A program made the position numbers and the translations under genes. From the NCBI GenBank assembly GCA_945902755.1, contig CAMDNC010000009.1, positions 1 through 43,142 of the forward strand: a stretch of 43,142 nt of DNA. Reading direction: 5' to 3'. The notes under the pieces are model-generated. The model was not told the origin of the DNA and did no database searches. It worked only from the letters and a program-made list of their open reading frames with translations. Shown here piece by piece: positions 4,740-35,133 of the stretch; position 1 is the first letter of the stretch, and every line of letters begins with the position of its first letter. Source of the DNA: Flavipsychrobacter stenotrophus (GTDB lineage Bacteria; Bacteroidota; Bacteroidia; Chitinophagales; Chitinophagaceae).

Positions 4740-5588
4740 ATGAAAAGAATAGTACAGATTTTTGATGCACAGCATTTTACGCCTGAGGCGCTTGCTTTTT
4801 CTGCTGATATAGTTCGCCACACAGGCGCTACACTGATAGGGCTGTTTGTTCAAGATACCAGTTTCATAAATGATCCGGGTATGAATATCATAGCCGGTCA
4901 GTTCTATGTGGAGGAAATAGTGCTGACTGCCGAAGAAAAACAGAAAATTCAGGATGCCACAGATGCTAGTGTGGCTGCATTTATGCAAGGTTGCGCCCAG
5001 CACAACATTAATGGCAACGCAATAGTAAAACAAGGTATTCCGGCTGAAATTCTAAAAGCCGAAAGTCGTTATTGCGACATGATGATAGTATCTCCTCTTC
5101 TTTGCTTCGACGGTGAGCAGGCAGTGCCTACTGTATTTATTTATAATTTGTTGGCAGCGGCTGAATGTCCGGTTTTGTTGTCACCTGAGCAGTTTCAGCG
5201 CATAGATGAGGTCATATTTGCATTTGATGGCAGTAAATCTGCATCTTTTGCTATCAGGCAGTTTGCATACATGTTGCCATCATTTTGTGCAGCAAAGGTT
5301 ATTGTTATCAATATATCTGAAGAAGGCGGCAAAGATACCTCTATTGCTGCTCACCATCCATCATTTACCCAATGGATGGAGCTACATTGTCCAAATTACC
5401 GTCAAATAACACTGGTAGGAAACGCTAGAGATGTGCTCTTCAATTACTTTATGGAGAATGATAATAATAACAAGCTCTTAGTAGCTGGTTCGTTTGGTAG
5501 GAGTGCAGTTTCTCGTTTCTTTAAGCCTGGCACTACCGAACTGGTACTTAAAACTGCTGATGTGCCAGTATTTATAGTGCATAATTAA
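4740..5588 (+). CDS. Universal stress protein, tandem UspA type
   Basis: A 282-residue cytosolic protein made of two UspA-like halves, the usual Bacteroidota arrangement. The first half (1 to about 140) opens with KRIVQIFDA. The second half (about 155-282) opens with EVIFAFDGSKSASFAIRQF and ends with LLVAGSFGRSAVSRFF...ELVLKTADVPVFIV. The GSFGRS segment followed by a later glycine matches the ATP-binding loop of UspA proteins. Such proteins respond to stress, redox or energy state, but the target cannot be named. It starts 85 bases after mlaD and is followed by a strong hairpin, so it is probably its own unit or the end of the mla transcript. Confidence 0.85.
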   Translation: MKRIVQIFDAQHFTPEALAFSADIVRHTGATLIGLFVQDTSFINDPGMNIIAGQFYVEEIVLTAEEKQKIQDATDASVAAFMQGCAQHNINGNAIVKQGIPAEILKAESRYCDMMIVSPLLCFDGEQAVPTVFIYNLLAAAECPVLLSPEQFQRIDEVIFAFDGSKSASFAIRQFAYMLPSFCAAKVIVINISEEGGKDTSIAAHHPSFTQWMELHCPNYRQITLVGNARDVLFNYFMENDNNNKLLVAGSFGRSAVSRFFKPGTTELVLKTADVPVFIVHN

Positions 5589-5695
5589 ATGTAGTTAGGA
5601 GTAGTGCAATTAGTTGGTTGATAATGAGTTTTTTAGCTTTTTAGGTCTAATAACTTCACGATCAAACTAAAATATTACGAAAGTTCTAACCTAGA

Positions 5696-5744
5696 ATAAA
5701 TAACGATGGGGCTATTTGTAAGAGATAGCCCCATCGTTATTTAT
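5696..5744. terminator. Bidirectional rho-independent terminator between usp and pgk
   Basis: A perfect 20-base-pair stem (5696-5715 with 5725-5744) encloses a 9-base loop, TTGTAAGAG. The outer stem is A/T rich, so each strand carries a short U-rich 3' side. It lies between the convergent ends of the usp gene (+) and pgk (-) and can serve both. Confidence 0.85.
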
Positions 5745-5761
5745 GAATAGTTGATTGATTT

Positions 5762-6970
5762 TTATCCTTTTATCGCAGCGATCCCTGGTAATGTTTTACC
5801 CTCAAAAAACTCGAGCATAGCACCACCACCAGTAGAAACATAACTTACTTTATTTGCCAAATTGAACTTGTTTACAGCAGCAACACTGTCACCACCACCC
5901 ACTAGTGAGAAAGCTCCATTTTCAGTAGCAGCAACCACCGCCATAGCTATTGCCTTGGTGCCATGCTGAAATTTGTCCATTTCAAACACACCCATAGGGC
6001 CATTCCATAATATGGTTTTTGATTCGCTCACGATCTTCGAAAACTGTGCTATAGCCATTTGACCAATATCTAGTCCCATCCAGCCGGTAGGTATTTCATT
6101 GCTCAGTGATGATGAAGTAGCAGCATCCGCTGCAAATTTGTCGGCCAGAATACTATCTCCGGGCAGGTGTATACATACTCCTTTATCGGCTGCTTTTTTT
6201 AGCAGGTCTAGTGCCATATCTAGTCTATCATCTTCACATAGCGAATTACCGATATGACCACCTTGCGCCTTAAAGAAGGTATAAGCCATACCACCACCTA
6301 TAATAATATCTGTGGCTTTTTCTAACAAATTTTCAATAATCAGTATTTTGTCCGATACCTTAGCACCACCTATAATAGCTGTAAATGGTTTCCTATTATT
6401 GTGCATCACTTCCTCAGCTGCTTTTACTTCACCTTCCATCAGCAATCCAAACATTTTTTTATCGCCAGGGAAAAACTCAGCTATTACCGCAGTAGAAGCG
6501 TGTGCCCTATGTGCAGTACCAAAAGCGTCATTTACATATACATCGCCCAGTTTGGCTAGTTTCTCTGCGAATTCCTTGTCGCCTTTTTCTTCCTGTTTGT
6601 AGTAGCGCAAGTTTTCTAGTAATAGCACTTCACCTGACTTTAGGCTAGCAGCCATGTTGGCGGCGTCATCACTTATACAGTCTGTAGCAAACTGTACAGG
6701 TAAGCCCAGTAGGGTAGACAAGTGAGCTGCAACCGGACTAAGCGTGAAGTCGGCAAGGGTAAGGTGTGGTTTTTTCTCTATATCCTTAAGCGGACGACCC
6801 CAATGGCTCATTAATACTACGCTGCCACCGTCTGCCAGTACTTTGGTGATAGTAGGCAATGCAGCACGCATACGAGTATCGTCAGTAATAACGCCATTTT
6901 TTATAGGTACATTAAAATCTACGCGTATCAATGCACGCTGATTAGCAAAATTGTGTGTGGAGAAATTCAT
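5762..6970 (-). CDS. pgk: Phosphoglycerate kinase
   Basis: Glycolytic enzyme that transfers phosphate from 1,3-bisphosphoglycerate to ADP; 402 residues, the normal bacterial length. Visible marks are RVDFNVP near residue 17, [15 protein letters not shown], and the C-terminal nucleotide-binding GGGDSVAA with [13 protein letters not shown]. It is last in a minus-strand run after gap, the ATPase gene and the nuclease gene. Only 25 bases separate it from the nuclease gene, so its promoter must lie within or before that cassette, or it depends on read-through from it. That is odd for a core glycolytic gene. Confidence 0.97.
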
Positions 6971-7526: not shown

Positions 7527-8800
7527 TTCTTCATCAATTCCGTTAATGCATCAAAATCATCAGACATTTTATCTGAAGCTTCATCAATATAATTACCTAC
7601 TATCAGCCCAGCTTCTCTATCAAAAATTGAAGAAGCCGTGCCGTCTTTTATCTGATATGCAGTGAAAGTATTAGGATTTATCGTTGTGGTAGTTATCGTT
7701 TTTACATCTTTTGATTTGTTATTGCCTAATACATTCAGAACCTTATTGGCATATAATAGATTGTTGAAAGCAGAAATAATGTAAGGGCTATGAGTGGTAT
7801 AAGTATGAATTGCACCATCATCTTCCCATAATGGTTCAATCCGTTTAGATTCAATGAGCTTTATTAATTCATATTGTGCGGTAGGGAATAAGTTTAACTC
7901 AGGTTCTTCAATTACCAACGATCTATGTTTGGAGAGTATGTTATGAGATAAAACAATTAATAATACAGGCACTATGCTTTGAATTCCTGAAGCTGATTCG
8001 GATAATTTTATACTATCTCGGTTTATAAATATCCTATCTTCTCCATTAATGTTTCTATAAGACAACGAATTACTTAAAAAGCTAAGATCAATAGATTTCA
8101 TCTTCACTTTCTCTAGTTCTGCTCCAAATATTAAAATATGCTTTGGAATTGGCACGTTATTTAGAAGTAAGTTAAGAGATGAATTTTTGATAATATTAAT
8201 AAAGCTCCTTTCAGCGGGTATGTATAATGATGAATTACTGCTTAGGTCAATTTCAATTTTATTTATTATTTGGAGTGCTTTTAGTACTTCTTTCGAAGTT
8301 ACATCGTTAAATTCAGTATATTCATTTATTTCACTATTATTTAATTCTATACCTAATAGCTCTGAAAATTGTTCTTCAAATTGATAATAATCGTTACAAA
8401 GCTTTATTATATAATCTTGTATGAGATCTTTGTTAAGTGTAAACTCTTCGTTTAAACGCTCTAATCCTGTAATTTTATTGTACAGCTTTGGTTCGTATGC
8501 GATTTTACCACCATTAAATGACAATCTATGTAAAACAGAATCATAGATAATTTCAGTATTTAGCTTTAGGAATGAAACAATGTTGTATTCTTCCAGTACG
8601 TTTTTAAATGCAGCAATTCGGTCATTAGAACTTTGATTTTCTAGACTCAAAAACTTTCGTGGTGCTTTAAATATGGTAAATAATTTTGCCAATGCACTTT
8701 TGCCACTCGCTTGGGGACCTATGAAAACGTTTACGTTTCGTAGGTCGAGATCAACAAAATCTATAGGTCCGAAATTTTTTACTATTAAACGAGATTGCAT
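7523..8800 (-). CDS. AAA_15/OLD/RecF-like ATPase, probable defence protein
   Basis: A 425-residue ABC-type (SMC/RecF/OLD-like) ATPase. Walker A is GPQASGKS (28-35), the ABC-like signature is SESASGIQS (267-275), Walker B is LVIEEPELNLFP (295-306) and the switch histidine is in TTHSP (H337). Between them lies a long helical insertion (about 60-250). There is no C-terminal Toprim domain, unlike OLD or GajA, so nuclease activity would have to come from the partner gene that overlaps it by four bases. Such ATPases pair with effector nucleases in many anti-phage modules (for example Septu and PARIS), but this pair matches none I can name. It is strongly AT-rich (23% GC in one sampled line). A terminator separates it from gap upstream. 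Confidence 0.75.
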   Translation of the reverse strand: MQSRLIVKNFGPIDFVDLDLRNVNVFIGPQASGKSALAKLFTIFKAPRKFLSLENQSSNDRIAAFKNVLEEYNIVSFLKLNTEIIYDSVLHRLSFNGGKIAYEPKLYNKITGLERLNEEFTLNKDLIQDYIIKLCNDYYQFEEQFSELLGIELNNSEINEYTEFNDVTSKEVLKALQIINKIEIDLSSNSSLYIPAERSFINIIKNSSLNLLLNNVPIPKHILIFGAELEKVKMKSIDLSFLSNSLSYRNINGEDRIFINRDSIKLSESASGIQSIVPVLLIVLSHNILSKHRSLVIEEPELNLFPTAQYELIKLIESKRIEPLWEDDGAIHTYTTHSPYIISAFNNLLYANKVLNVLGNNKSKDVKTITTTTINPNTFTAYQIKDGTASSIFDREAGLIVGNYIDEASDKMSDDFDALTELMKK

Positions 8801-19599: not shown

Positions 19600-20580
19600 A
19601 TGCTTCGAAATAATGTAATTGTAGTAACCGGTGCTGCTGGTTTTATTGCCAGCTATTTGGCGGGCTATCTTAATGCTATGGGATTCAATCAGTTGATTCT
19701 GGTTGATGATTTTTCTGCTGAAAATAAGTTGCCAAATCTTGTTGGTAAGCAATACTTGGAGCAGGTAAACAGGGACAATTTCTTTGAATGGCAGAAGACC
19801 TGTAACTATAATATTGATTACATTTTTCATTTAGGAGCACGTACAGATACTACTGAAATGGATTATGCTGTACACAAAAAACTCAATCTCGATTATTCTA
19901 TCAAGATTTGGCAGCTGTGTACAGCATCAAATATTCCACTGGTTTATGCGTCATCAGCTGCTACCTATGGCAATGGGGAGCACGGCTATGATGACAGGCA
20001 TGACATTGTGAGTAGTTTAGCCCCCCTCAATCCATATGGGGTGTCGAAAAATGAGTTTGATATCTGGGCATTGGCGCAAGTGAAACACCCACCTTTCTGG
20101 GCTGGTATGAAATTCTTTAATGTTTTCGGACCGAACGAATATCATAAAGGCAGAATGGCCTCTGTGATATTTCATGCTTACAATAGTATTAAAAATACTG
20201 GGGAGGTAAAGCTGTTTCGCTCACATCATCCTGATTATCGGGACGGGGAGCAAATACGTGATTTTATATATGTAAAAGATATTGTGCAGCTTTGTGTGTG
20301 GTTAATGCAATATCAACCTACAAGTGGCTTGTATAATGCAGGCACTGGAACTGCTAGAACTTTTAATGATTTGGTGACAGCTATATTCAGTGCCTTGGCA
20401 ATGGAGCCTAAAATTGAGTATGTAGATACGCCATTAGACATTCGTGACAAGTATCAGTATTTTACTGAGGCTAATATGACCAAAGTGAAAAAAGCGGGTT
20501 ATGATGCACCTTTTTACTCCCTAGAAGAAGGTGTGAGAGAATATGTATCTGAATTTCTTACTGAAGGTAAGTATTTCTAA
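19600..20580 (+). CDS. hldD: ADP-L-glycero-D-manno-heptose 6-epimerase
   Basis: Epimerase that makes the heptose donor for the LPS inner core; 326 residues. The NAD(P)-binding motif is VTGAAGFIAS and the short-chain dehydrogenase triad is visible as SSAATYG and YGVSK. HldD-specific segments include FHLGARTDTTE, KFFNVFGPNEYHKG and GEQIRDFIYVKD. It follows the His-rich membrane protein by 15 bases and ends 23 bases from the convergent T9SS protease. Confidence 0.95.
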   Translation: MLRNNVIVVTGAAGFIASYLAGYLNAMGFNQLILVDDFSAENKLPNLVGKQYLEQVNRDNFFEWQKTCNYNIDYIFHLGARTDTTEMDYAVHKKLNLDYSIKIWQLCTASNIPLVYASSAATYGNGEHGYDDRHDIVSSLAPLNPYGVSKNEFDIWALAQVKHPPFWAGMKFFNVFGPNEYHKGRMASVIFHAYNSIKNTGEVKLFRSHHPDYRDGEQIRDFIYVKDIVQLCVWLMQYQPTSGLYNAGTGTARTFNDLVTAIFSALAMEPKIEYVDTPLDIRDKYQYFTEANMTKVKKAGYDAPFYSLEEGVREYVSEFLTEGKYF

Positions 20581-20603: not shown

Positions 20604-23600
20604 CTATTTGAATATTACTTTGAAAGTATTTGTGTAATTGCTGGATGTAGCTTTTACAAAATATACACTTTTCGTTTTTGGTATTGTGGTGAGCGTAGTT
20701 GTGTTATCCCATTCTGTTGCTGTTAGTGTGTACTGTTCTATAAATCTTCCAGTTATATCATAAATTGAAACTTTCATTTCAGTGCCAGGGTCTGCAAACC
20801 AGTGGATAGAAATTTTATCATTTGAAGTAGGGTTGGGGTAGATTTCAGAAAGGGCAATGCGATCTATCCACTTAACTTTTTGTACAGGTAGGGTTACTTT
20901 GGAGTTATCGTTAAGTACTGCTGTGAGTTTATAACTCAAAACCGCCCCAGGGTGTATGTTGGCTGGTGCATCAGTGATGTAGTAAAGTTGTCCGTAATTT
21001 TTTTCGGAGGATACATTGGCTATTTCAGTGTAACTATCGTCGTTAATGGCACGTTCTAGGAGGTAGTTTTTTACCATGCCGTCAATAAACGACTGCCATT
21101 TGGTGAGAACATGGTTGCTACTGGCCATCGAAGCGTTGAATTTCACCCCACCTTCCGTCTCTTCATTCTGTTCTATTTTTCTTACTGGCGAGTAATGAAG
21201 CGTAGTGCTATTTTTCATTGTCCACTTCAGTCTGAAGTACACGGTACTAGATAGTTCTTCAGTAGCAGTGACTGTGTATTCGCCAGGATTGTCATTGCGA
21301 GCAATGATTGTGGCGACCTCAGTGAACATAATATTGTCGATACTGGATTCTAATACATATTGATTAACAGCAGTATCGATTAGCGAATGCCAAAATGCAG
21401 TTGCGTAAGCCCCTTTTTTGAAAGCAATAAAGTTGAGGTAGTCGTCGCCAGCCACAAAAGCATTAGTTGGGCCACCGTTGTTGAACCATAATTCGCCCAA
21501 ATCTTTAATTCTGGCTTCGGCGCGATACCCACTCATGTAGGGAACCCAATTTACTTTTTCACTGTTGTAATATCGGGTGGTTCCGGTGAAATTATCATTT
21601 AGTGTTCCATTTACAGTATTGTTTTTTTGGTTATCGACGTATTGAGTAATACCCAATGTGTATGCATCTTCAATTCTGGTGCAAGATGGACAGGTAGTAT
21701 CGGTGGTGATTTTCAAGATGTCTTGTTCAGTAAGAAATAACCTAACTACAAAACTATCTGAAGATTCTTGTTCTGTATATAGAGCGTAGCTTCTTGGTAT
21801 CAAATATTGTGTTTGGCCATGATTGTAGAGCGTATCAATTTGATACAAAGAAATGGATATGTTATTGAAATATTGTGTTGGTTGTACTTCAGCAGCTAAT
21901 AGATTGTTGGTTGCAAAAACATTCCAAGTATTGGCAGATTGGTCGTTTTGAATTGTTGTTTGGCCATTAGCGGCTAATATGTCTTTGTTTTTGTCATAAA
22001 TATGAATGTCGTCTATGGCTACACCTTCATAGGCTACTGCTGGGTCGGAGAAAAAAACGAATCTAAGGTGTAGCACTTTTGAGGCTGGAGGTACGGGTAA
22101 TGGAACAGAGACAACATGCCATCTACTAAATCCAGCAGTATTCCAGATGTGGTGAGTGCTGTCATACCAGTTTGTAGTGTTACTATTAGCATCTATTTTA
22201 GTCCACAAATTTCCATCATAGGAATATTCCAAATAAGCGCCGTCGCAGAGTATACTGCCGCAGTTTTCGATATCTTCAGCCATACTGAAACTAAGCATCG
22301 GCTGACTCATTGCAGAAAGATCGAAACAAGGAGAGTATAGGTAGGACTCTTCTAAATCGTTGTGATTCCCGGTAAGATTAGTTTTCCATGCTTTTTTGCC
22401 GCTTGCAGCTTTGTTTATTCTGGTGGATGATGGAGCACCATATTGCCACGAACTCATAAAACCGTCGGTATAAAATCCGCCATTATCTTTTTCGAACTGC
22501 TCGAGATATGGATAATCTGTAATGATTTTACTATTTAAGAATTGATAGTTTATAATACTATCATTGTCACTGTAAGTGTCACTGGCAGCACTTATCCATA
22601 TTTTTATAGAGTGCTTACTGCCGGTAGTGATATCCATTGATTGCGTAAAAGTGTAGTTTATTGAATCTTTAGATTTCAGGGAGTCGATTGTACCCTGATA
22701 TACTATTCCGTTATCTAGTGCGTAATACACCGATATGTTTTTTATAGTGTAATTAACACCGTTTTTTACTTTAACAGTTAGTGGAATTGAAGAAGGGAGG
22801 CCGCAATTGTTTGGGATTGGAGCTACAACATCTGCTAACACAGCATCGTTAGCTACAGTATACATTCTGAAGTTATCAATAGTGATACCTGTACCAAAGT
22901 TAGTGGAAGCTATGATGGTAGTGTCATTTTGACCAAAAGCTATTTGTGTGCTCGTAGAGAAATTTTGATTGCTGTGACGAACAATGTCTGTTATTGAAAT
23001 TGATTTTACTTGTTTCAGTGTGCCAGGATAGCTGTTGGAGTCATAATTATAGATTGTTTTCCAGGCAGAAGTATCAGTAGCACGAGCAAAAACAGCATTG
23101 CCGTTTTTGTTGTTAGGAATGCTATGCAAAATGTAATCATAATCGATTCTTATTTCATGTAACCCAGTATCGTAACTAGATAAATTGAAAGTGCCAGAGA
23201 ATAAATTATTACTACCGCTCCTCATTGGCATAAATTGATCCATACTTACAGATCTGTTTCCTTTAATTACAATTTTATCGTAGATATAGGATCTAATTCT
23301 TCCAGAGTCATCTTCGTTGAAATAGTCCCAATGACCGTTTGGTGAAATACCGATGGAGTCGTGCGTGGTATTAAACAACAGCATATCTTCAAAACCATCT
23401 TCGTACAGGTGGGTTAGGTCCATTGGGTCGTTTGGAAGGCATTTTATATTTTTAATAACAGTATCGTTGGATGAATGTGGGTCGGGAACAGAAGTATTAT
23501 GGATGGCAATTTTGAGTGTATAATTGCCTGCTAGTGAGAAATCTAATCCAGGTAAATCAAGATATGTGGTTGAGTTAGCACGTATTGTATAACCAGGATT

Positions 23601-26222
23601 AATTAGTTGTTGCCATGTGCCATTGTTTATTTGCCATGATAGTGTGTAACTACCGCAGTCGGTGTTGTATAGGTTCCTGATGCCAACTTTTATAGTTTTT
23701 CCAGCTTGGATAGCAGAGCTTGTGAACATTCTGCCACTTTCAGGACCGGAAATAGTATCGATCATCAAATCTCCACTGGTAGCAGCAAGTTGGCAATCGC
23801 CATTATTAGCAATGCCTGATAGTGCAATACTTCTGTAACCACTTAAGCCATTCATTATAGGTTGGACTGCAACATAGGTGCGATTGTGTAAGGATAAGCC
23901 CACAAATACGTAATTGGTGTCGGTAGTGGTGTCTATCACTAACATTTCGGCACCAATTTTTTTAAGTACTGCATAAGCATTTGCTCCAGGAATTGGCGAC
24001 CAATGAACATTCATGTAACCTGGGCACTGGGTGATAGCAAGCGACAGTTTGGGTTTGGGGTTGATGACGAATCGCTGCGATGTGGAAACTTGTGTAGTAT
24101 TGTTTCTGCTTACTCTAACCAAACAATTTCCTGAGCTCACTCCTTCTGGTATCCAACTGAAGTATCTTTTTTCTGCAGGAACTGCATTTGCCATGGTAAC
24201 CCAGGTGCTGCCGTTATCTTTACTAAATTCTACTTTGCAGGTATTACCATCTGTAATTGCTTGCCAAAAAACTCTAAACGAGTCAACATCCGTAGCTTGT
24301 TCGCCACCTAGTGGGAACGTTAGCGATAAGCTCACTGGTGCTAGGTCGTAAGCAATAACAAAAGGTTGTGGTCCTAATGATACATCATACCCTCTAACAG
24401 TTACAGTATAGTTGCCTGATTCTGGATTGTTGATTGTTATTTGTTCAACATTGTTCAGATGGTCTGCTTGTTCAATAGCTGGTTTTTGAGCATTAGCAGG
24501 AGTGGCATCTGGAACTAATGGTAATTTTATTTGACCATTTGGCAGCTTGAGAACAACATCTAAGTCATTCACCAGTTGTTTTGCAGCAGATGGACTTGCT
24601 GGTGCGTCATTCCAATACAACATTATTTTAGCTTGAGCTGTTCCAGTTGGTATGTTAATGACGTACGATTGTGAGTCGCTGTGGTTTAAAATGCCAGATC
24701 TGTACCAGTTGTTTTCTAAAGTCTTTAGTGCGCGACCGATATCCATCATGCCGAAGCCAAAGCTGAAGTCGGGACCAGCAACACCTAGATCGGTGGAAGA
24801 GTTAAGTAATACTGTTTTTAGAAGGTCGGCTCTGGGTTGTGTACCATTATGCAACTGTTTGTAACGCTGGGTAAGAATGGCCAATCCGCTGGCTACTTGT
24901 GGTGAAGCCATGCTAGTGCCTCCAGCCCATCCATAGGTGTTGTTTCGCAACCCTGAGTAGACGCTTGCGCCAACAGCCACAATATCTGGTTTGATTCTTC
25001 CGTCTTTAACAGGGCCACGAGATTGGTCCCATGCCTGTACCAAATTATGACTAGTGCTACCAACCACGATTATGTTTTTGGAAGGCTGATATCCACCGCC
25101 CACAGTTGCATAGCCTGGGGCATGAGGAGCACAAGTCAACTCGCCATCATTACCAGCTGCAAACACGTGCTGAACAGTGGGGTATTGTATGGCCATTGTA
25201 TCGAGAAAACGAGAATAAAGGTCGTAAGTCCCAAAATATGGACAATTATCTTCTGCGATGGTGTATGAGTTGTTGGTGATAGTCATGTTGTGTTGCGCAA
25301 GCATAGTACCAGTAGCAGGAAGAAGACTACTAAAGAAGAAATTCAACAGTTTGACTTTGGGCGTCATACTAATAGCTAGTGGATCTAATATGGCGGCACC
25401 ACCAGCAATCCCATTTATATGGATGCCATGATTGGTCATCGGCGCTGGGTTGTAGTTAGTGATACGATCTACCATATCTGTGTGGAAAATTCCTGATGTG
25501 TTATCGCCAACACCAATCGTAACACTATCTCCATTAAGGTTGTAACCACCTAATAGAAAAGGTGCGATAGCATTGTTTCCCTTAACGGCAGGTATTGATT
25601 GACGGTCTAGTAACACTGGCTTTGTCCTCATCGATATACTGCGAATACCATACCATCCTGCTAGGTTTCGTAGCTTCTGAGCAGCTATATCTATGTTGTA
25701 ATAACCATAATCCTCCATGTCTCCAGCTAGCAATTGTCCATCCAAACTTCTGACAAGGTCTTGCAATTCTTGTTTGCCTACTACGCTATAAATAGATACT
25801 ACAAGTTTGAGGTTGCCAGTCGTAACTGATTGCCAAAGATATTTGTCAGCTTTCCATTCTGGCAACATAGGTGTGATGCTATATGAAAGAGATAGTGCTC
25901 GTTTAGCTCGATCTGATAACTGACTTACAATTGCGACATATGTATTGTCGGGTATGTAATCGAGTACAGTAATGCCTGCTCTAGAGAGGCTGTCGAGCGA
26001 AGTGCTATTGGGTTTTTTATCGAAATGCAACAAAACTTGTTCGGCGCTGGTTTTGTTGCCTCTATTATTTATCCATTCAGCTGAGTTGCTGATGGTGGAG
26101 ATAACTCCACTTTTTAAATGTATAGTGTGAGAAGGTAATGAGCTTTGCGCATGTGCAATGGTAATACACAGTAAGTATGCACTTAGTAGAATTGAACTGA
26201 ATTTATAGGCTTTCCTGATCAT
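20604..26222 (-). CDS. Giant secreted subtilisin-like (S8) serine protease with T9SS sorting domain
   Basis: A 1872-residue exported protein. The start at MIRKAYKFSS gives a clean signal peptide ending AHAQ; 35 upstream residues in frame do not. A propeptide-like region (about 30-210) precedes the S8 domain (about 225-540). The triad is D240 (GVGDN), H265 (NHGIHINGIAGG) and S437 (GGTSMASP), with oxyanion N358 (AAGNDG). Next come a proprotein-convertase-like beta domain, Ig/CARDB-like beta modules and MAM/jelly-roll-like segments. The final 80 residues (EIYPNPTSNDKISI ... YFVKATS) are a type A T9SS C-terminal sorting domain. The protein should be secreted through T9SS and attached to the cell surface or released. 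Confidence 0.92.
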   Translation of the reverse strand: MIRKAYKFSSILLSAYLLCITIAHAQSSLPSHTIHLKSGVISTISNSAEWINNRGNKTSAEQVLLHFDKKPNSTSLDSLSRAGITVLDYIPDNTYVAIVSQLSDRAKRALSLSYSITPMLPEWKADKYLWQSVTTGNLKLVVSIYSVVGKQELQDLVRSLDGQLLAGDMEDYGYYNIDIAAQKLRNLAGWYGIRSISMRTKPVLLDRQSIPAVKGNNAIAPFLLGGYNLNGDSVTIGVGDNTSGIFHTDMVDRITNYNPAPMTNHGIHINGIAGGAAILDPLAISMTPKVKLLNFFFSSLLPATGTMLAQHNMTITNNSYTIAEDNCPYFGTYDLYSRFLDTMAIQYPTVQHVFAAGNDGELTCAPHAPGYATVGGGYQPSKNIIVVGSTSHNLVQAWDQSRGPVKDGRIKPDIVAVGASVYSGLRNNTYGWAGGTSMASPQVASGLAILTQRYKQLHNGTQPRADLLKTVLLNSSTDLGVAGPDFSFGFGMMDIGRALKTLENNWYRSGILNHSDSQSYVINIPTGTAQAKIMLYWNDAPASPSAAKQLVNDLDVVLKLPNGQIKLPLVPDATPANAQKPAIEQADHLNNVEQITINNPESGNYTVTVRGYDVSLGPQPFVIAYDLAPVSLSLTFPLGGEQATDVDSFRVFWQAITDGNTCKVEFSKDNGSTWVTMANAVPAEKRYFSWIPEGVSSGNCLVRVSRNNTTQVSTSQRFVINPKPKLSLAITQCPGYMNVHWSPIPGANAYAVLKKIGAEMLVIDTTTDTNYVFVGLSLHNRTYVAVQPIMNGLSGYRSIALSGIANNGDCQLAATSGDLMIDTISGPESGRMFTSSAIQAGKTIKVGIRNLYNTDCGSYTLSWQINNGTWQQLINPGYTIRANSTTYLDLPGLDFSLAGNYTLKIAIHNTSVPDPHSSNDTVIKNIKCLPNDPMDLTHLYEDGFEDMLLFNTTHDSIGISPNGHWDYFNEDDSGRIRSYIYDKIVIKGNRSVSMDQFMPMRSGSNNLFSGTFNLSSYDTGLHEIRIDYDYILHSIPNNKNGNAVFARATDTSAWKTIYNYDSNSYPGTLKQVKSISITDIVRHSNQNFSTSTQIAFGQNDTTIIASTNFGTGITIDNFRMYTVANDAVLADVVAPIPNNCGLPSSIPLTVKVKNGVNYTIKNISVYYALDNGIVYQGTIDSLKSKDSINYTFTQSMDITTGSKHSIKIWISAASDTYSDNDSIINYQFLNSKIITDYPYLEQFEKDNGGFYTDGFMSSWQYGAPSSTRINKAASGKKAWKTNLTGNHNDLEESYLYSPCFDLSAMSQPMLSFSMAEDIENCGSILCDGAYLEYSYDGNLWTKIDANSNTTNWYDSTHHIWNTAGFSRWHVVSVPLPVPPASKVLHLRFVFFSDPAVAYEGVAIDDIHIYDKNKDILAANGQTTIQNDQSANTWNVFATNNLLAAEVQPTQYFNNISISLYQIDTLYNHGQTQYLIPRSYALYTEQESSDSFVVRLFLTEQDILKITTDTTCPSCTRIEDAYTLGITQYVDNQKNNTVNGTLNDNFTGTTRYYNSEKVNWVPYMSGYRAEARIKDLGELWFNNGGPTNAFVAGDDYLNFIAFKKGAYATAFWHSLIDTAVNQYVLESSIDNIMFTEVATIIARNDNPGEYTVTATEELSSTVYFRLKWTMKNSTTLHYSPVRKIEQNEETEGGVKFNASMASSNHVLTKWQSFIDGMVKNYLLERAINDDSYTEIANVSSEKNYGQLYYITDAPANIHPGAVLSYKLTAVLNDNSKVTLPVQKVKWIDRIALSEIYPNPTSNDKISIHWFADPGTEMKVSIYDITGRFIEQYTLTATEWDNTTTLTTIPKTKSVYFVKATSSNYTNTFKVIFK

Positions 26223-26450
26223 AATAATTTCATCTGTATACACGAGGTCAATCAATACATAAATATCACAAATTTTGGGGTAATAGCCTAAAAAACTACA
26301 TTTATTAACTATTGAGTTTGGTTTCAAAACTATAGTACATCGATTGTCATTTTATCATTGCACTTCTTCATTTTAACATTATAAAACAAGCTTCACACTC
26401 TCATTTTGTTATCTTTATCGCATTCATAAAACTGTATGATGTAATGTAAT

Positions 26451-29442: not shown

Positions 29443-30456
29443 ATGGAATTATATCTCGATTCGGCTAACCTGAAAGAAATAGAAGAAGGTTTTAAACTCG
29501 GTTTTCTTACCGGACTCACTACTACACCCACCTTTATGCAGCGTGAAGGTATCACAGATATAGACGGCACGATTGTAAAGTTGTCTAAAATGGTGCCAGT
29601 GCTGCAAATAGAAGCGCTGGGCAATACTGCAGAAGAAGTTGTGGCAGAAGCAGTTCGTCAGTTGAATCTGGGATTAGATCCTAAAACGACAGTTTTTAAA
29701 ATACCTGTTTCTTTGGAAGGTCTTAGAGCTTGCAAGATGCTGCGCAATCAGGGATTGTTAGTGAATGTACACCTAGTATATACACTACAGCAAGCGTACA
29801 TGGCTATGCAAGCAGGTGCAAGTTATGTATGTCCATTGGTAGGGCGTTTGCAAGATCAGGGTCATGATGCAGTGGCGCTGGTGGAACAATGTGTGAAGGC
29901 TGTGAAGCAGTATGGCTACGATACTAAAATCATGTTTAGTTCTGTGCGTAATTCTGAGCATGTGCGCAACGCACTTACAGCAGGAGCGCACACGATTACT
30001 GTACCACTTAAAATATTGAAATCTCTTACAGAGAATAATTTTACTACTATAGGAACAGAACAGTTTTTGAGCGATACTCGCCTAATGACTGTGCGCGTAA
30101 AAGATGCTATCAATAGTATCAATCCACTTGTGAATGCTGATACAAACCTTAAAGATGCTATTGTAAAGATGACTGAATATGGATTTGGTTGTATAACAGT
30201 GGTAAATGATAACGGAGAAGTTGCTGGTGTGTTTACGGACGGTGATTTGCGGAGATTGTTGCAAAATGATGGAGAACACATTTTGGACAAAAAAATAGGT
30301 AGTTTGGAGTACAAAACACCGATAAGTATAGATGTAAATGCACTGTTGAATGATGCAGCAGCGATATTTAAGAAAATGAAAGTAGACACTATACTGGCTA
30401 CTGACAATAACAAACCTGTAGGTATGCTAGACATACAGGATTTGAAAGCATATTAA
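29443..30456 (+). CDS. Transaldolase/FSA-family barrel fused to KdsD-type CBS domain pair
   Basis: A 337-residue fusion. Residues 1 to about 212 are a TalC/fructose-6-phosphate-aldolase type barrel: MELYLDSANLKEIEEG, D6, Glu57 at the transaldolase Glu / FSA Gln59 position, Schiff-base K86 (FKIPVSLEGL), and GIEQF-like TIGTEQFLSD at the end. Residues about 215-337 are two CBS domains, with GVFTDGDLRRLL and KPVGMLDIQDL. These match the C-terminal pair of arabinose-5-phosphate isomerase KdsD/KpsF far better than generic CBS domains. The SIS isomerase domain is absent. Downstream are a KdsC-like phosphatase and kdsB. Active-site changes are T28 for Asn, H110 for Thr and L132 for Phe/Tyr. The start MELYL is the conserved family start; 34 upstream residues in frame are rejected. 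The function in Kdo-type sugar supply is inference. Confidence 0.85.
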   Translation: MELYLDSANLKEIEEGFKLGFLTGLTTTPTFMQREGITDIDGTIVKLSKMVPVLQIEALGNTAEEVVAEAVRQLNLGLDPKTTVFKIPVSLEGLRACKMLRNQGLLVNVHLVYTLQQAYMAMQAGASYVCPLVGRLQDQGHDAVALVEQCVKAVKQYGYDTKIMFSSVRNSEHVRNALTAGAHTITVPLKILKSLTENNFTTIGTEQFLSDTRLMTVRVKDAINSINPLVNADTNLKDAIVKMTEYGFGCITVVNDNGEVAGVFTDGDLRRLLQNDGEHILDKKIGSLEYKTPISIDVNALLNDAAAIFKKMKVDTILATDNNKPVGMLDIQDLKAY

Positions 30457-30570: not shown

Positions 30571-31287
30571 ATGACTAATATATATACAGATTTTATTCAA
30601 AATGCATTTTCTGGAACATTTGTGACAGGGGCAAGTGAACTAGGTATGAAACTGGACCGAATAAATGCCTATATTTTTGATTGGGATGGTGTATTTAATA
30701 ATGGCTCGAAGGGTGCTGATGGTTCAAGTCCGTTTAACGAGGTAGACTCAATGGGCATAAATATGCTTAGGTACAATCACTACATTCGCAAATCGCTCAA
30801 TCCCATAGCAGGTATTATAACTGGCGAAAAAAATCCTGTAGCATTTACTTTTTCTAGACGAGAGCATTTTCATGCGGTATATTATGGTATAAAAAACAAA
30901 AAAGATGCATTAATGCATCTTTGTGAAGCGCACGATATACAACCAGACGAAGTGGCCTATTTTTTTGATGATATCACGGATCTGGAAGTTGCATCTATGT
31001 GTGGGATAAGGATAATGGTAGGTAGAAACTGCAACCCAATGTTGGTGAATATGGCAAAAGAAAAACACCTTGCCGACTATATAACATCAAAAGATGGTGG
31101 TAACAATGCGATACGAGAAGCCACTGAATTGCTAAAAGCACTAAGCGGAAAATATGACGAAACGATAATGCAGCGGTCTATTTACTCAGAACACTATCGC
31201 GATTACCTCAATAGCAGAAATATTCCTTCTCCAGCATTTTATACAGTGACAGATTCTAAGATTTCAGAAACCAATCCATTAATATGA
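30571..31287 (+). CDS. KdsC-like HAD phosphatase, divergent and extended
   Basis: A 238-residue HAD-superfamily hydrolase of the KdsC (Kdo-8-phosphate phosphatase) group. The nucleophile motif is FDWDGVFNNG (D37, D39). FNEVDSMGI matches the KdsC FNVRDGYGI segment. The late acidic motif is FFDDITD (D133, D134, D137), and DGGNNAIREATELL matches the KdsC end. It differs from standard KdsC by about 30 extra residues at the start and 45 at the end, by GE instead of GR after the second motif (IITGEK), and by F for G in the GDDxxD motif. The substrate may therefore differ from Kdo-8-phosphate. Its ATG follows an in-frame TTG by two codons. It overlaps kdsB by four bases (ATGA). Confidence 0.8.
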   Translation: MTNIYTDFIQNAFSGTFVTGASELGMKLDRINAYIFDWDGVFNNGSKGADGSSPFNEVDSMGINMLRYNHYIRKSLNPIAGIITGEKNPVAFTFSRREHFHAVYYGIKNKKDALMHLCEAHDIQPDEVAYFFDDITDLEVASMCGIRIMVGRNCNPMLVNMAKEKHLADYITSKDGGNNAIREATELLKALSGKYDETIMQRSIYSEHYRDYLNSRNIPSPAFYTVTDSKISETNPLI

Positions 31288-32024
31288 TAGCAGGTATAAT
31301 ACCAGCAAGATTTGCATCTTCTCGTTTTCCCGGTAAACCGCTAGCTGATATAAACGGTAAAACCATGATCCAGTGTGTGTATGAGCAGGCTGCGATGAGC
31401 CAACATTTGGACATAGTGGTGGTAGCGACTGATGACGATAGAATATATAACCATGTACTTTCTTTTGGAGGTAAGGTGGTAATGACCGCTACTGAACATC
31501 CTAGTGGAACTGACAGGTGCTATGAAGCGCTTACGCAACTGGGCGATGGCTATGAGTATGTTATTAATATACAGGGAGACGAACCATTTATAGTACCCGC
31601 ACAAATTGATGAACTAGCCGTGGTTCTACAACAGGGAGGTGTGGAAATCGCAACTCAAATGATAGCTGTAACTGATCATGATTCACTGTTTGACAAGGGA
31701 GAGGTAAAAATAGTGCTTAATGATAATATGGAAGGTATGTACTTCAGTAGAATGGTAATACCTTTTATAAAGGGCGTAGATGAAAAAGAATGGCATCTGC
31801 ACCATACCTATTACAGGCATGTGGGTATGTATGCTTATAGGAGTGACATCCTAGCCCAATTAATTAAGCTTCCAGTATCGAAGCTAGAAAAAGCTGAATC
31901 GCTGGAGCAACTGAGGTGGGTAGAAAGTGGATATAAGATAAAGTGTGTGCTAACAACATACGAAAGTCATTGTATAGATACCCCTGAAGACTTGGAACGG
32001 CTAAAGTATAATGCTGGTGTGTAG
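31284..32024 (+). CDS. kdsB: 3-deoxy-manno-octulosonate cytidylyltransferase
   Basis: CMP-Kdo synthetase, which activates Kdo for LPS or capsule assembly; 246 residues, normal length. Family marks are IPARFASSRFPGKPLADI, EHPSGTDRC, NIQGDEPF, and RHVGMYAYR with KLEKAESLEQLRWVE. Its start overlaps the KdsC-like gene by four bases. Together with the transaldolase-CBS gene upstream it forms a compact sugar-activation cluster. No kdsA or classical kdsD is in the window. Confidence 0.95.
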   Translation: MIAGIIPARFASSRFPGKPLADINGKTMIQCVYEQAAMSQHLDIVVVATDDDRIYNHVLSFGGKVVMTATEHPSGTDRCYEALTQLGDGYEYVINIQGDEPFIVPAQIDELAVVLQQGGVEIATQMIAVTDHDSLFDKGEVKIVLNDNMEGMYFSRMVIPFIKGVDEKEWHLHHTYYRHVGMYAYRSDILAQLIKLPVSKLEKAESLEQLRWVESGYKIKCVLTTYESHCIDTPEDLERLKYNAGV

Positions 32025-33612: not shown

Positions 33613-35133
33613 TTAAATGCTTTGCTGCAAATAGGGTAGCAATTCTTCAATGTATTTACGTTCATTGCTCAATCGTGGTACTTTGTGCTGACCTCCAAGT
33701 TTACCTTTGTCTTTCAACCAACGTTTGAAACCATCCTTGGGCATTTGATGAACTATTGGCATTCTCAACGCCATATCTTTGTGGCGTTTCGCTTCGTAGT
33801 CTGAATTGATAGCTTGAAGCGATTTATCGAGCAAGGAGGTGAATACCTCAATTGGTACAGGTAGATGCTCAAATTCTATAATCCATTCGTGGGCGCCATT
33901 GGTAGCACCAGTCATATACACTGGGGCGGCAGTATAATCGGCAACAATAGCTCCAGTTTCAGCGGATGCTATAGCAATAGCATTGTCTGCATTGTCTACA
34001 ATTAGTTCTTCGCCAAATGCATTAATAAAGTGTTTGAGCCTGCCAGTTACCTTGATTCGATATGGAACCAAAGATGTGAACTGTATGGTATCGCCAACCA
34101 GATATCGCCATAAGCCACCGTTAGTACTAATAACAATTGCGTAATTGGTATATAGTTCTACATTTTTGAGGGTGAGCGTCTTGGGGTTTTCTTTTCCATA
34201 TTCATCCATTGGCATAAATTCATAGAAAATACCATGGTTCAAGAATAGTAACATCCCTTCCTCATCTTCTCTGTCTTGTGCAGCAAAAAATCCTTCTGAC
34301 GCATTGTATGTTTCTCGATAAAACATTTTGGGAGAAGGTATAAACTGTTCGAACTGACGCCGATATGGGGTGAAATTTACGCCACCATGTATGTAAAGCT
34401 CCAGGTTGGGCCAAATATCTAATAGGTTATTAGCGCCAGTAATTTCGAAAATTCTTTTGATAAGTACAATAGTCCAAGTAGGAACACCTGCTATATATGT
34501 AACATTCTCGCGTATGGTGCTGTGTGCCATACGCTCTATTTTTTCTTCCCATTCGGTCATCAGTGCGATGGAGAGCTCTGGTAAGCGAAACATTTGACCT
34601 GCGAATGGCATGTTTTGCAACATAACGGCAGATAGATCTCCAAAAAATGAAGCAGCATTTAATTGGTTGATTTGGTGACTACCACCCATCACAACACATT
34701 TTCCAGATGTAAGATCAGAGTTTGGATTCTCTCTGAGGTAGAGTGCTAGCACATCTCTAGCACCTCTAAAATGAGTATCGTCTAATGATTCTTTACTAAC
34801 GGGGATAAACTTGCTTTTATCGCTTGTGGTGCCACTTGATTTAGCAAACCATGTAATTGGGGAGGGCCACAGTACATTTTGAGTGCCTTCTAGTATGCGT
34901 TGGATATATGGCTTCAGGGTTTCGTAGTCATTGATAGGCACTTTTTTTTGGAAATCGGTAATGTTGTCGATATTCTCGAATCTATATTTTTTACCGTATT
35001 CAGTAAATTGAGCTGACCCTATTAGATGATTGAACACTTGTTGTTGTGTATCTATGGGGTTGTGCGTGAAATTATCAATTGCACTTTGGCGCAACTTGAT
35101 AAATCCTCTGAATGCCGGACTAATTATGCTCAT
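33613..35133 (-). CDS. GH3 family acyl-acid-amido synthetase-like protein
   Basis: A 506-residue protein of the GH3 family (ANL-type adenylating enzymes, named after plant auxin-responsive GH3). The ATP-binding motif is AKSSGTTSDKSKFIPVS, followed by PRLSNE near the C-terminus and WRYLVGDTIQFTS in the middle. In plants these enzymes join an acyl acid to an amino acid. The bacterial substrate is not known. In Bacteroidota the gene is common, and here it follows lptB by 54 bases, so the two may share a transcript. Confidence 0.88.
   Translation of the reverse strand: MSIISPAFRGFIKLRQSAIDNFTHNPIDTQQQVFNHLIGSAQFTEYGKKYRFENIDNITDFQKKVPINDYETLKPYIQRILEGTQNVLWPSPITWFAKSSGTTSDKSKFIPVSKESLDDTHFRGARDVLALYLRENPNSDLTSGKCVVMGGSHQINQLNAASFFGDLSAVMLQNMPFAGQMFRLPELSIALMTEWEEKIERMAHSTIRENVTYIAGVPTWTIVLIKRIFEITGANNLLDIWPNLELYIHGGVNFTPYRRQFEQFIPSPKMFYRETYNASEGFFAAQDREDEEGMLLFLNHGIFYEFMPMDEYGKENPKTLTLKNVELYTNYAIVISTNGGLWRYLVGDTIQFTSLVPYRIKVTGRLKHFINAFGEELIVDNADNAIAIASAETGAIVADYTAAPVYMTGATNGAHEWIIEFEHLPVPIEVFTSLLDKSLQAINSDYEAKRHKDMALRMPIVHQMPKDGFKRWLKDKGKLGGQHKVPRLSNERKYIEELLPYLQQSI

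Follow-up and report, generated by a model that had tools for sequence, protein, structure and literature searches.

Most Gram-negative bacteria depend on Kdo synthesis, and KdsD, whose CBS pairs bind CMP-Kdo, is regarded as the standard entry enzyme of the pathway. D-arabinose 5-phosphate (A5P), the compound at issue here, is equivalent to fructose 6-phosphate minus C1, with the remaining centres in the same configuration. According to the portions of PMC6298115 available to us, the donor favoured by FsaA and FsaB is glycolaldehyde and the favoured acceptor glyceraldehyde 3-phosphate (G3P), the product being A5P, and FsaA makes A5P from these two substrates with a KM of 0.2 mM and a kcat of 16 per s. 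From the same substrates the TalB variant F178Y gives both A5P and ribose 5-phosphate (R5P), with FsaA giving A5P only (PMC9947464, in excerpt). In this work we describe a gene which joins a barrel of this kind to a CBS pair of the KdsD type, located in a stretch of 43,142 nucleotides from Flavipsychrobacter stenotrophus (the window, by which we mean the whole stretch analysed). On balance, we consider the encoded protein likely to be an A5P synthase that heads the pathway to Kdo or 8-amino-Kdo and stands in for the SIS-type KdsD.

Architecture of the fusion and descent of its CBS pair

The reading frame is genuine, running from an ATG at 29443 to a stop codon that ends at 30456 on the forward strand, and the open reading frame, its profile matches and its relatives together define a fusion gene (29443..30456, + strand, stop included) for a protein of 337 aa. 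Residues 1-212 (29443..30078, +) constitute a transaldolase/FSA barrel, to which Pfam assigns TAL_FSA (PF00923, residues 3-201, E 3.5e-37, above cut-off) and for which the nearest NCBIfam model is fsa_talC_mipB (TIGR00875, E 4.1e-48), at 163.6 bits and thus below its cut-off of 245.95. The solved structures nearest to the barrel are the transaldolases 3r8r of B. subtilis and 1vpx of T. maritima, and Foldseek, run with the AlphaFold2 model, places the T. acidophilum transaldolase 4xz9 on top (3.6e-19). This model, computed from 55 window and locus sequences, has a mean pLDDT of 87 and a pTM of 0.59, so that each domain appears to be well predicted while the orientation between the domains is uncertain. 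Residues 214-334 (30082..30444, +) form the CBS pair, with a Pfam CBS match at residues 228-274 (E 2.4e-16), the motifs GVFTDGDLRR (residues 262-271) and KPVGMLDIQDL (residues 324-334), and a match of residues 213-329 to kpsF (TIGR00393, E 1.5e-18) at 67.4 bits, below the cut-off of 203.7. Only this CBS half matches TIGR00393, and Pfam finds no SIS domain in the protein. Relatives of full length number 85 distinct sequences of 334-340 aa, which rules out a chance fusion or an artefact of frame. The first-pass annotation had described a TalC/FSA barrel with a catalytic K86 followed by KdsD-like CBS motifs, and profiles, alignment and PDB match all agree with that description.

The same annotation had matched the CBS motifs to those of KdsD. 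Their top PDB match is 4o9k, an arabinose-5-phosphate isomerase (E 7.4e-13). BLAST and the CBS tree were based on 12 rows from fusions (11 distinct), 11 from KdsD (9 distinct) and 14 from stand-alone CBS proteins. Of 19 stand-alone stretches fetched, five (L176, L180, L183, L190 and L193) yielded no row able to pass the filter and are not included; the IMPDH stretch L002 is likewise excluded. A KdsD CBS pair is the top BLAST hit for 12/12 fusion rows, and in the tree a 100/100 branch separates fusion and KdsD sequences from the stand-alone ones, although the program warns of long branches; KdsD as a clade is without support (38/0). Against the kpsF model, stand-alone CBS proteins from this order come near the window's protein (8.5e-18 in G120 and 2.2e-17 in G072, compared with 1.4e-18), and in G466 one of them (2.4e-17) beats the fusion's own CBS pair (2.2e-15); as such, the HMM score by itself is no proof of KdsD descent. 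We nevertheless find that BLAST and tree favour such a descent, consistent with the earlier assignment, and a generic CBS module was rejected as the source, given that the 14 stand-alone rows group apart in the tree in spite of their nearly equal scores. Since the fusion CBS pairs are not nested within the family's own KdsD, the join would appear to be old, or to have been acquired by transfer. As to ligands of such CBS pairs, no paper was found in the PMC literature (subscription papers and preprints lie outside this scope).

Genomic context and alternation with KdsD

Two genes lie 3' of the fusion on the same strand and overlap each other by 4 bases: a KdsC-like HAD phosphatase (30571..31287, +; NF007019 KdsC at E 1.3e-16, below cut-off, and no Pfam match) and kdsB, a Kdo-type cytidylyltransferase (31284..32024, +; NF003952 at E 6.5e-90, above cut-off). 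These neighbours had been put forward in the earlier annotation as backing for a pathway link, and the relatives bear this out. A scan of contigs gave 456 relatives, from which we retained the best 80. Each of these is full length, with 77-100% identity, and their titles are those of Bacteroidota except for L071, L109 and L115, where they are uninformative or odd. Among these best 80 of 456, tblastn places kdsA, a kdsC-like gene or kdsB near the fusion in 73 loci and none of them in 7. Counted singly, kdsA is near the fusion in 56/80, the KdsC-like gene in 63/80 and kdsB in 57/80; all three occur together in 37/80, many of the contigs being short. Where present, the genes share one strand and follow the order kdsA - fusion - kdsC-like - kdsB, extra ORFs being interposed in some cases. 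Homologues of kdnA and kdnB precede kdsA in 48 of the same 80 loci, and the products of the G220 copies have as top PDB matches 5k8b (KdnA, 2.4e-136) and 5k8c (KdnB, 1.4e-126), which we take to be KdnA and KdnB of Shewanella. As kdnA and kdnB are frequent in the operon, 8-amino-Kdo is probably its end product in many cases. In the window's own genome the set is split between contig C88, which carries waaA-kdnA-kdnB-kdsA, and the window, which carries fusion-kdsC-kdsB; on C88, WaaA scores above the Pfam and below the NCBIfam cut-off, KdnA is named by its Pfam family (DegT) and position, and KdnB shares 77% identity with the G220 copy. The fusion is matched by 58 plasmid records, none spanning 80% of the query among the matches listed.

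In 13 loci we inspected the gaps of the operon by eye. These gaps hold small ORFs in L066, L077, L091 and L093 and ORFs of 213-229 aa in L094 and L100, with further ORFs 3' of the fusion in L067 and L094; L071 has no ORF in its gaps, and L067 is almost gapless 5' of the fusion. No glycolaldehyde-producing gene was recognised in these gaps, and a gene of this type concealed in the operon was accordingly discarded as a candidate. Between kdsA and the fusion, L045 carries at 5309-5973 a DUF6364/PIN pair (Pfam) with the look of a toxin-antitoxin system, and ORFs resembling this pair by eye occur in L053, L054, L060 and L061. Elsewhere in the window are an ORF that by eye resembles ADP-heptose 6-epimerase of the LPS core (19600-20580, +), a subtilase of 1907 aa with a C-terminal Por secretion sorting domain (20604-26327, -) and a GH3-family protein (33613-35133, -), GH3 being the family of plant auxin-conjugating enzymes, here in a Bacteroidota genome.

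A separate SIS-type kdsD, for which the first-pass annotation had suggested a search, was not found in the window's own genome (95% complete), where the sole KpsF hits are CBS regions. In a sample of 149 genomes of the order the fusion occurs in four, all of family f1; these four have no KpsF above cut-off, whereas every other one of the 18 f1 genomes does. The family sample of 157 genomes, in which KpsF was counted at E up to 1e-30, divides into 12 genomes with the fusion only, 2 with both (G220 and G260), 133 with KdsD only and 10 with neither, such that KdsD is absent from 12/14 fusion genomes as against 10/143 others. For genomes at least 90% complete the corresponding numbers are 12, 2, 116 and 3 (Fisher p = 1.0e-12, and 1.7e-10 for all 157, both values ignoring relatedness). 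Switches between fusion and KdsD are seen within genera g5, g91 and g102. Across 395 genomes of the phylum the fusion is found in six, three of which lie beyond the order (G426, G466 and G656) and have no KpsF/KdsD above cut-off. KdsA accompanies the fusion in 17/17 fusion genomes searched, 16 times above cut-off and once in two pieces.

One pair of genomes from family f30 is particularly informative in this regard. G525, a single contig, carries the operon kdnA-kdnB-kdsA-kdsC-kdsB, in which no fusion separates kdsA from kdsC, and encodes a SIS KdsD at another site; G466 has the fusion and no KdsD, its fusion and kdsA being on different contigs. The most straightforward interpretation of this converse is that the two enzymes provide one and the same compound, A5P. 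The argument consists of one pair outside the home family, and G525 may possess a second, classical KdsA. Counting against a replacement are the two fusion genomes that keep KdsD and the 10 family genomes that have neither. In G260 the KdsD and the fusion accompany a single KdsA, of the fusion-operon type. G220 (L130, L125) has two KdsA types and KdsD, in addition to kdnA-kdnB-kdsA-fusion-kdsC at a contig end, and apparently runs two parallel lines of Kdo supply. Taken together, the genomics supports well a role of the fusion in A5P supply in place of KdsD, and we regard this role as highly probable.

A further question is raised by KdsA itself. We defined operon-type KdsA as at least 76% identical to the KdsA of the window's own genome, and aligned 71 such sequences (62 distinct) with the 26 of 30 fetched KdsD-type stretches that passed the filter and with the E. 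coli enzyme. The substitutions A61D, S68Y, F117Y, R120M, K139H and Q205R are found in 62/62, at six positions which are invariant in the 26 KdsD-type sequences and E. coli. This KdsA type, with D in KDNRSS, is exemplified by L201 (G525) at 7822-8670 and L139 at 4997-5830. R120 presumably helps to bind the phosphate of A5P. On residue roles in KdsA, the accessible parts of PMC6650799 and PMC3052366 contain nothing that settles R120. With such changes at invariant positions the acceptor might not be plain A5P, and the fusion could then be making a different acceptor for the altered KdsA, with a final product that is neither Kdo nor Kdo8N. The two genes do co-occur closely: operon-type KdsA is present in 7/395 phylum genomes, namely the six fusion genomes and G525, so that the fusion is found in 6/7 genomes with this KdsA and in 0/388 without it. 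G525, however, pairs the same KdsA type with KdsD in a genome devoid of the fusion, which indicates that the change in KdsA is independent of the fusion, and the KdnA and KdnB of G220 match the solved 8-amino-Kdo enzymes at the values given above. A different acceptor was set aside on the strength of G525, and we consider a different sugar very improbable.

Nor is KdnB a convincing cause of the replacement of KdsD, as it occurs in 100 of the 157 family genomes and the fusion is absent from 89 of these; 8-amino-Kdo therefore does not require the fusion, and this candidate was rejected. By identity to the window genome's own copy, KdnB in the family sample forms two groups, at 77-100% and 45-53% (cf. 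L139 5881-8221). The close group is represented in 11/14 family fusion genomes, and G113, G135 and G168, which are fusion genomes, give no match to KdnB with E up to 1e-60.

The barrel active site and candidate chemistry

The active-site alignment comprised 85 distinct fusions, FsaA and TalB of E. coli, and 26 stand-alone TAL/FSA proteins of the order, taken from genomes other than the four in the order sample that carry the fusion. Lys86 (codon 29698..29700, +), the predicted Schiff-base lysine, corresponds to K85 of FsaA and K132 of TalB and is kept in 85/85 fusions, as are Asp6, Glu57, Asn108, Arg135, Ser167 and Arg169. The PF00923 signature of a Schiff-base Lys, an Asp and phosphate-binding Arg and Ser is thus present throughout (K86, D6, R135, S167, R169). 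Predicted phosphate ligands are Arg135 (29845..29847, +; R134 of FsaA, R181 of TalB; role from excerpts of PMC3962226) and, within Ser167-Val168-Arg169 (29941..29949, +), the Ser and Arg that correspond to S226 and R228 of TalB. In the sections of PMC3962226 and PMC3962088 available, the acceptor phosphate is bound by two Arg and one Ser.

The remainder of the site is altered, uniformly so in 85/85 fusions. Thr28 (29524..29526, +) replaces Asn28 of FsaA and Asn35 of TalB at what we take to be a functional position of fructose-6-phosphate aldolase and transaldolase, with Asn in 26/26 stand-alone proteins and FsaA; Thr likewise replaces Ser30/37 (FsaA/TalB numbering). His110 (29770..29772, +) takes the place of Thr109/156, which is Thr in 26/26 stand-alone proteins and FsaA. 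Within Cys130-Pro131-Leu132 (29830..29838, +), Cys replaces Ala129/Ser176 and Leu replaces Tyr131/Phe178, where 26/26 stand-alone genes have Ser and Phe and FsaA has Ala and Tyr. Phe and Ser stand for Ala164 and Ala165 of FsaA. The signature of a fructose-6-phosphate aldolase or transaldolase (Asn28/35, Ala/Ser at 129/176, Tyr131/Phe178) consequently fails, with T, C and L in 85/85. In a tree of barrels with 17 fusion rows, those of the fusions make up one clade on a very long stem.

Ser at position 129/176 hydrogen-bonds the C1-OH of dihydroxyacetone (PMC3962226 and PMC3962088, both in part). A5P has no counterpart of this hydroxyl. Altered C1-OH contacts next to retained phosphate ligands are suggestive, and would be compatible with an A5P-forming aldolase. 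FsaA makes A5P with Asn28, Ala129 and Tyr131 in place, so the changes in the fusion are not required for this product; as far as sequence can indicate, the donor-site changes speak for a loss of dihydroxyacetone use, short of proving the product. Sedoheptulose 7-phosphate chemistry would seem unlikely with a donor site altered in this manner.

These observations bear on whether the fusion is simply a normal transaldolase or fructose-6-phosphate aldolase, its flux tuned through the CBS pair by nucleotides of the Kdo pathway and A5P coming from elsewhere, such as the isomerase domain of GlmS. The fold is indeed that of TAL/FSA, and the isomerase domain of GFAT has been proposed as a eukaryotic source of A5P (PMC11301363, in part). 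All four fusion genomes in the order sample, however, possess a further, stand-alone TAL/FSA gene (33-36% identical), on which ground a house-keeping transaldolase was rejected; the donor site is altered in every fusion, and the usual absence of KdsD beside the fusion would be left unexplained. We consequently find this explanation quite improbable.

Somewhat better placed, and still doubtful in our estimation, is an isomerase, in which the barrel would convert ribulose 5-phosphate (Ru5P) to A5P by proton transfer and without C-C cleavage, His110, Glu57 and Lys86 serving as acid and base. Such an enzyme would explain why the fusion alternates with an isomerase gene and would need no glycolaldehyde; furthermore, H110 and E57 are invariant, and T109H and Y131L alter what we assume to be the usual catalytic-water site in the 109/131 region. 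It fits poorly with the retention of Lys86, Asp6, Asn108 and both phosphate Arg as in Schiff-base transaldolases, and no isomerase of the TAL fold is known to us.

We thus return to an A5P-forming aldolase. T109 and Y131 are presumably residues used by canonical aldol chemistry, and their removal by T109H and Y131L means that the chemistry may be non-classical. The first-pass annotation had proposed A5P supply by an aldol or a transaldol step. The A5P role is supported by the absence of KdsD and the link to kds genes; the transaldol alternative is not, since transfer of dihydroxyacetone gives only ketoses and cannot make A5P, an aldose, leaving an aldol branch of the glycolaldehyde type as the only viable one. 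From the computed architecture, operon, alternation with KdsD and altered active site we infer a substrate, mechanism, product and allosteric control as follows. Lys86 would hold the two-carbon glycolaldehyde unit as an enamine, which would add to G3P, bound through Arg135, Ser167 and Arg169, and so form A5P. The subsequent steps would fall, in this order, to KdsA, the KdsC-like phosphatase, KdnB and KdnA (where present), KdsB and WaaA. The two carbons might derive from free glycolaldehyde or, more economically, from R5P via retro-aldol cleavage on Lys86, a route that would amount to net epimerisation at C2 of R5P to A5P. The CBS pair may sense a nucleotide sugar of the pathway, as in KdsD. 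It is reasonable to suppose that the A5P-supply role and aldol chemistry on Lys86 hold jointly, and we think this probable.

The formation of both A5P and R5P by TalB F178Y implies that one barrel can form the two, and a barrel of this sort working from R5P would be a C2 epimerase. Because inspection of the gaps in 13 loci revealed no recognisable glycolaldehyde-forming gene, we retain this mode, and tentatively entertain the fusion as a ribose-5-phosphate 2-epimerase that breaks and remakes the C2-C3 bond on Lys86. Were this true, it would constitute a third route to A5P beside SIS isomerisation and GFAT (the latter proposed for eukaryotes), and a new aldolase-type epimerase controlled by the end product of its pathway.

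Comparison with known systems

No paper naming a transaldolase-CBS fusion was found in the PMC literature, subscription papers and preprints being outside this scope. If the proposed role is correct, the fusion is a non-homologous replacement of KdsD that has been swapped in and out across Bacteroidota, and it fills an annotation gap for genomes which look A5P-less when judged by KdsD. It would also represent a natural use of aldol chemistry for A5P, which in the portions of PMC6298115 and PMC9947464 consulted is otherwise in vitro or engineered, and would offer a candidate enzyme for A5P formation in synthetic pathways that assimilate glycolaldehyde.

With FsaA/FsaB and the TalC-type transaldolases the fusion shares the barrel, the Schiff-base Lys, Asp6 and the Arg/Ser phosphate ligands. 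It differs from FsaA and TalC in N28T, S30T, T109H, A129/S176 to C, Y131/F178 to L, A164F and A165S, in scoring below the FSA model cut-off, and in its added CBS pair and Kdo operon. The sulfofructose transaldolase BmSF-TAL (8bc3, 8c4i) is comparable as an enzyme of TalC fold turned to another pathway; that pathway differs from the one of the fusion, and a CBS pair is lacking in its solved chains (218-226 aa). The Kdo8N enzymes KdnA (5k8b) and KdnB (5k8c) have homologues in the 48 fusion loci noted above and in the window's own genome, with the difference that the fusion is added between kdsA and the kdsC-like gene. Shewanella, for its part, presumably uses an ordinary KdsD. To KdsD/KpsF/GutQ (SIS-CBS-CBS) the fusion is alike in the type of CBS pair, in its inferred position in the pathway and in alternating presence; unlike these enzymes it has no SIS domain, its catalytic half being a TAL/FSA barrel, and the KdsD-type CBS pair is in this way found on a second kind of catalytic domain.
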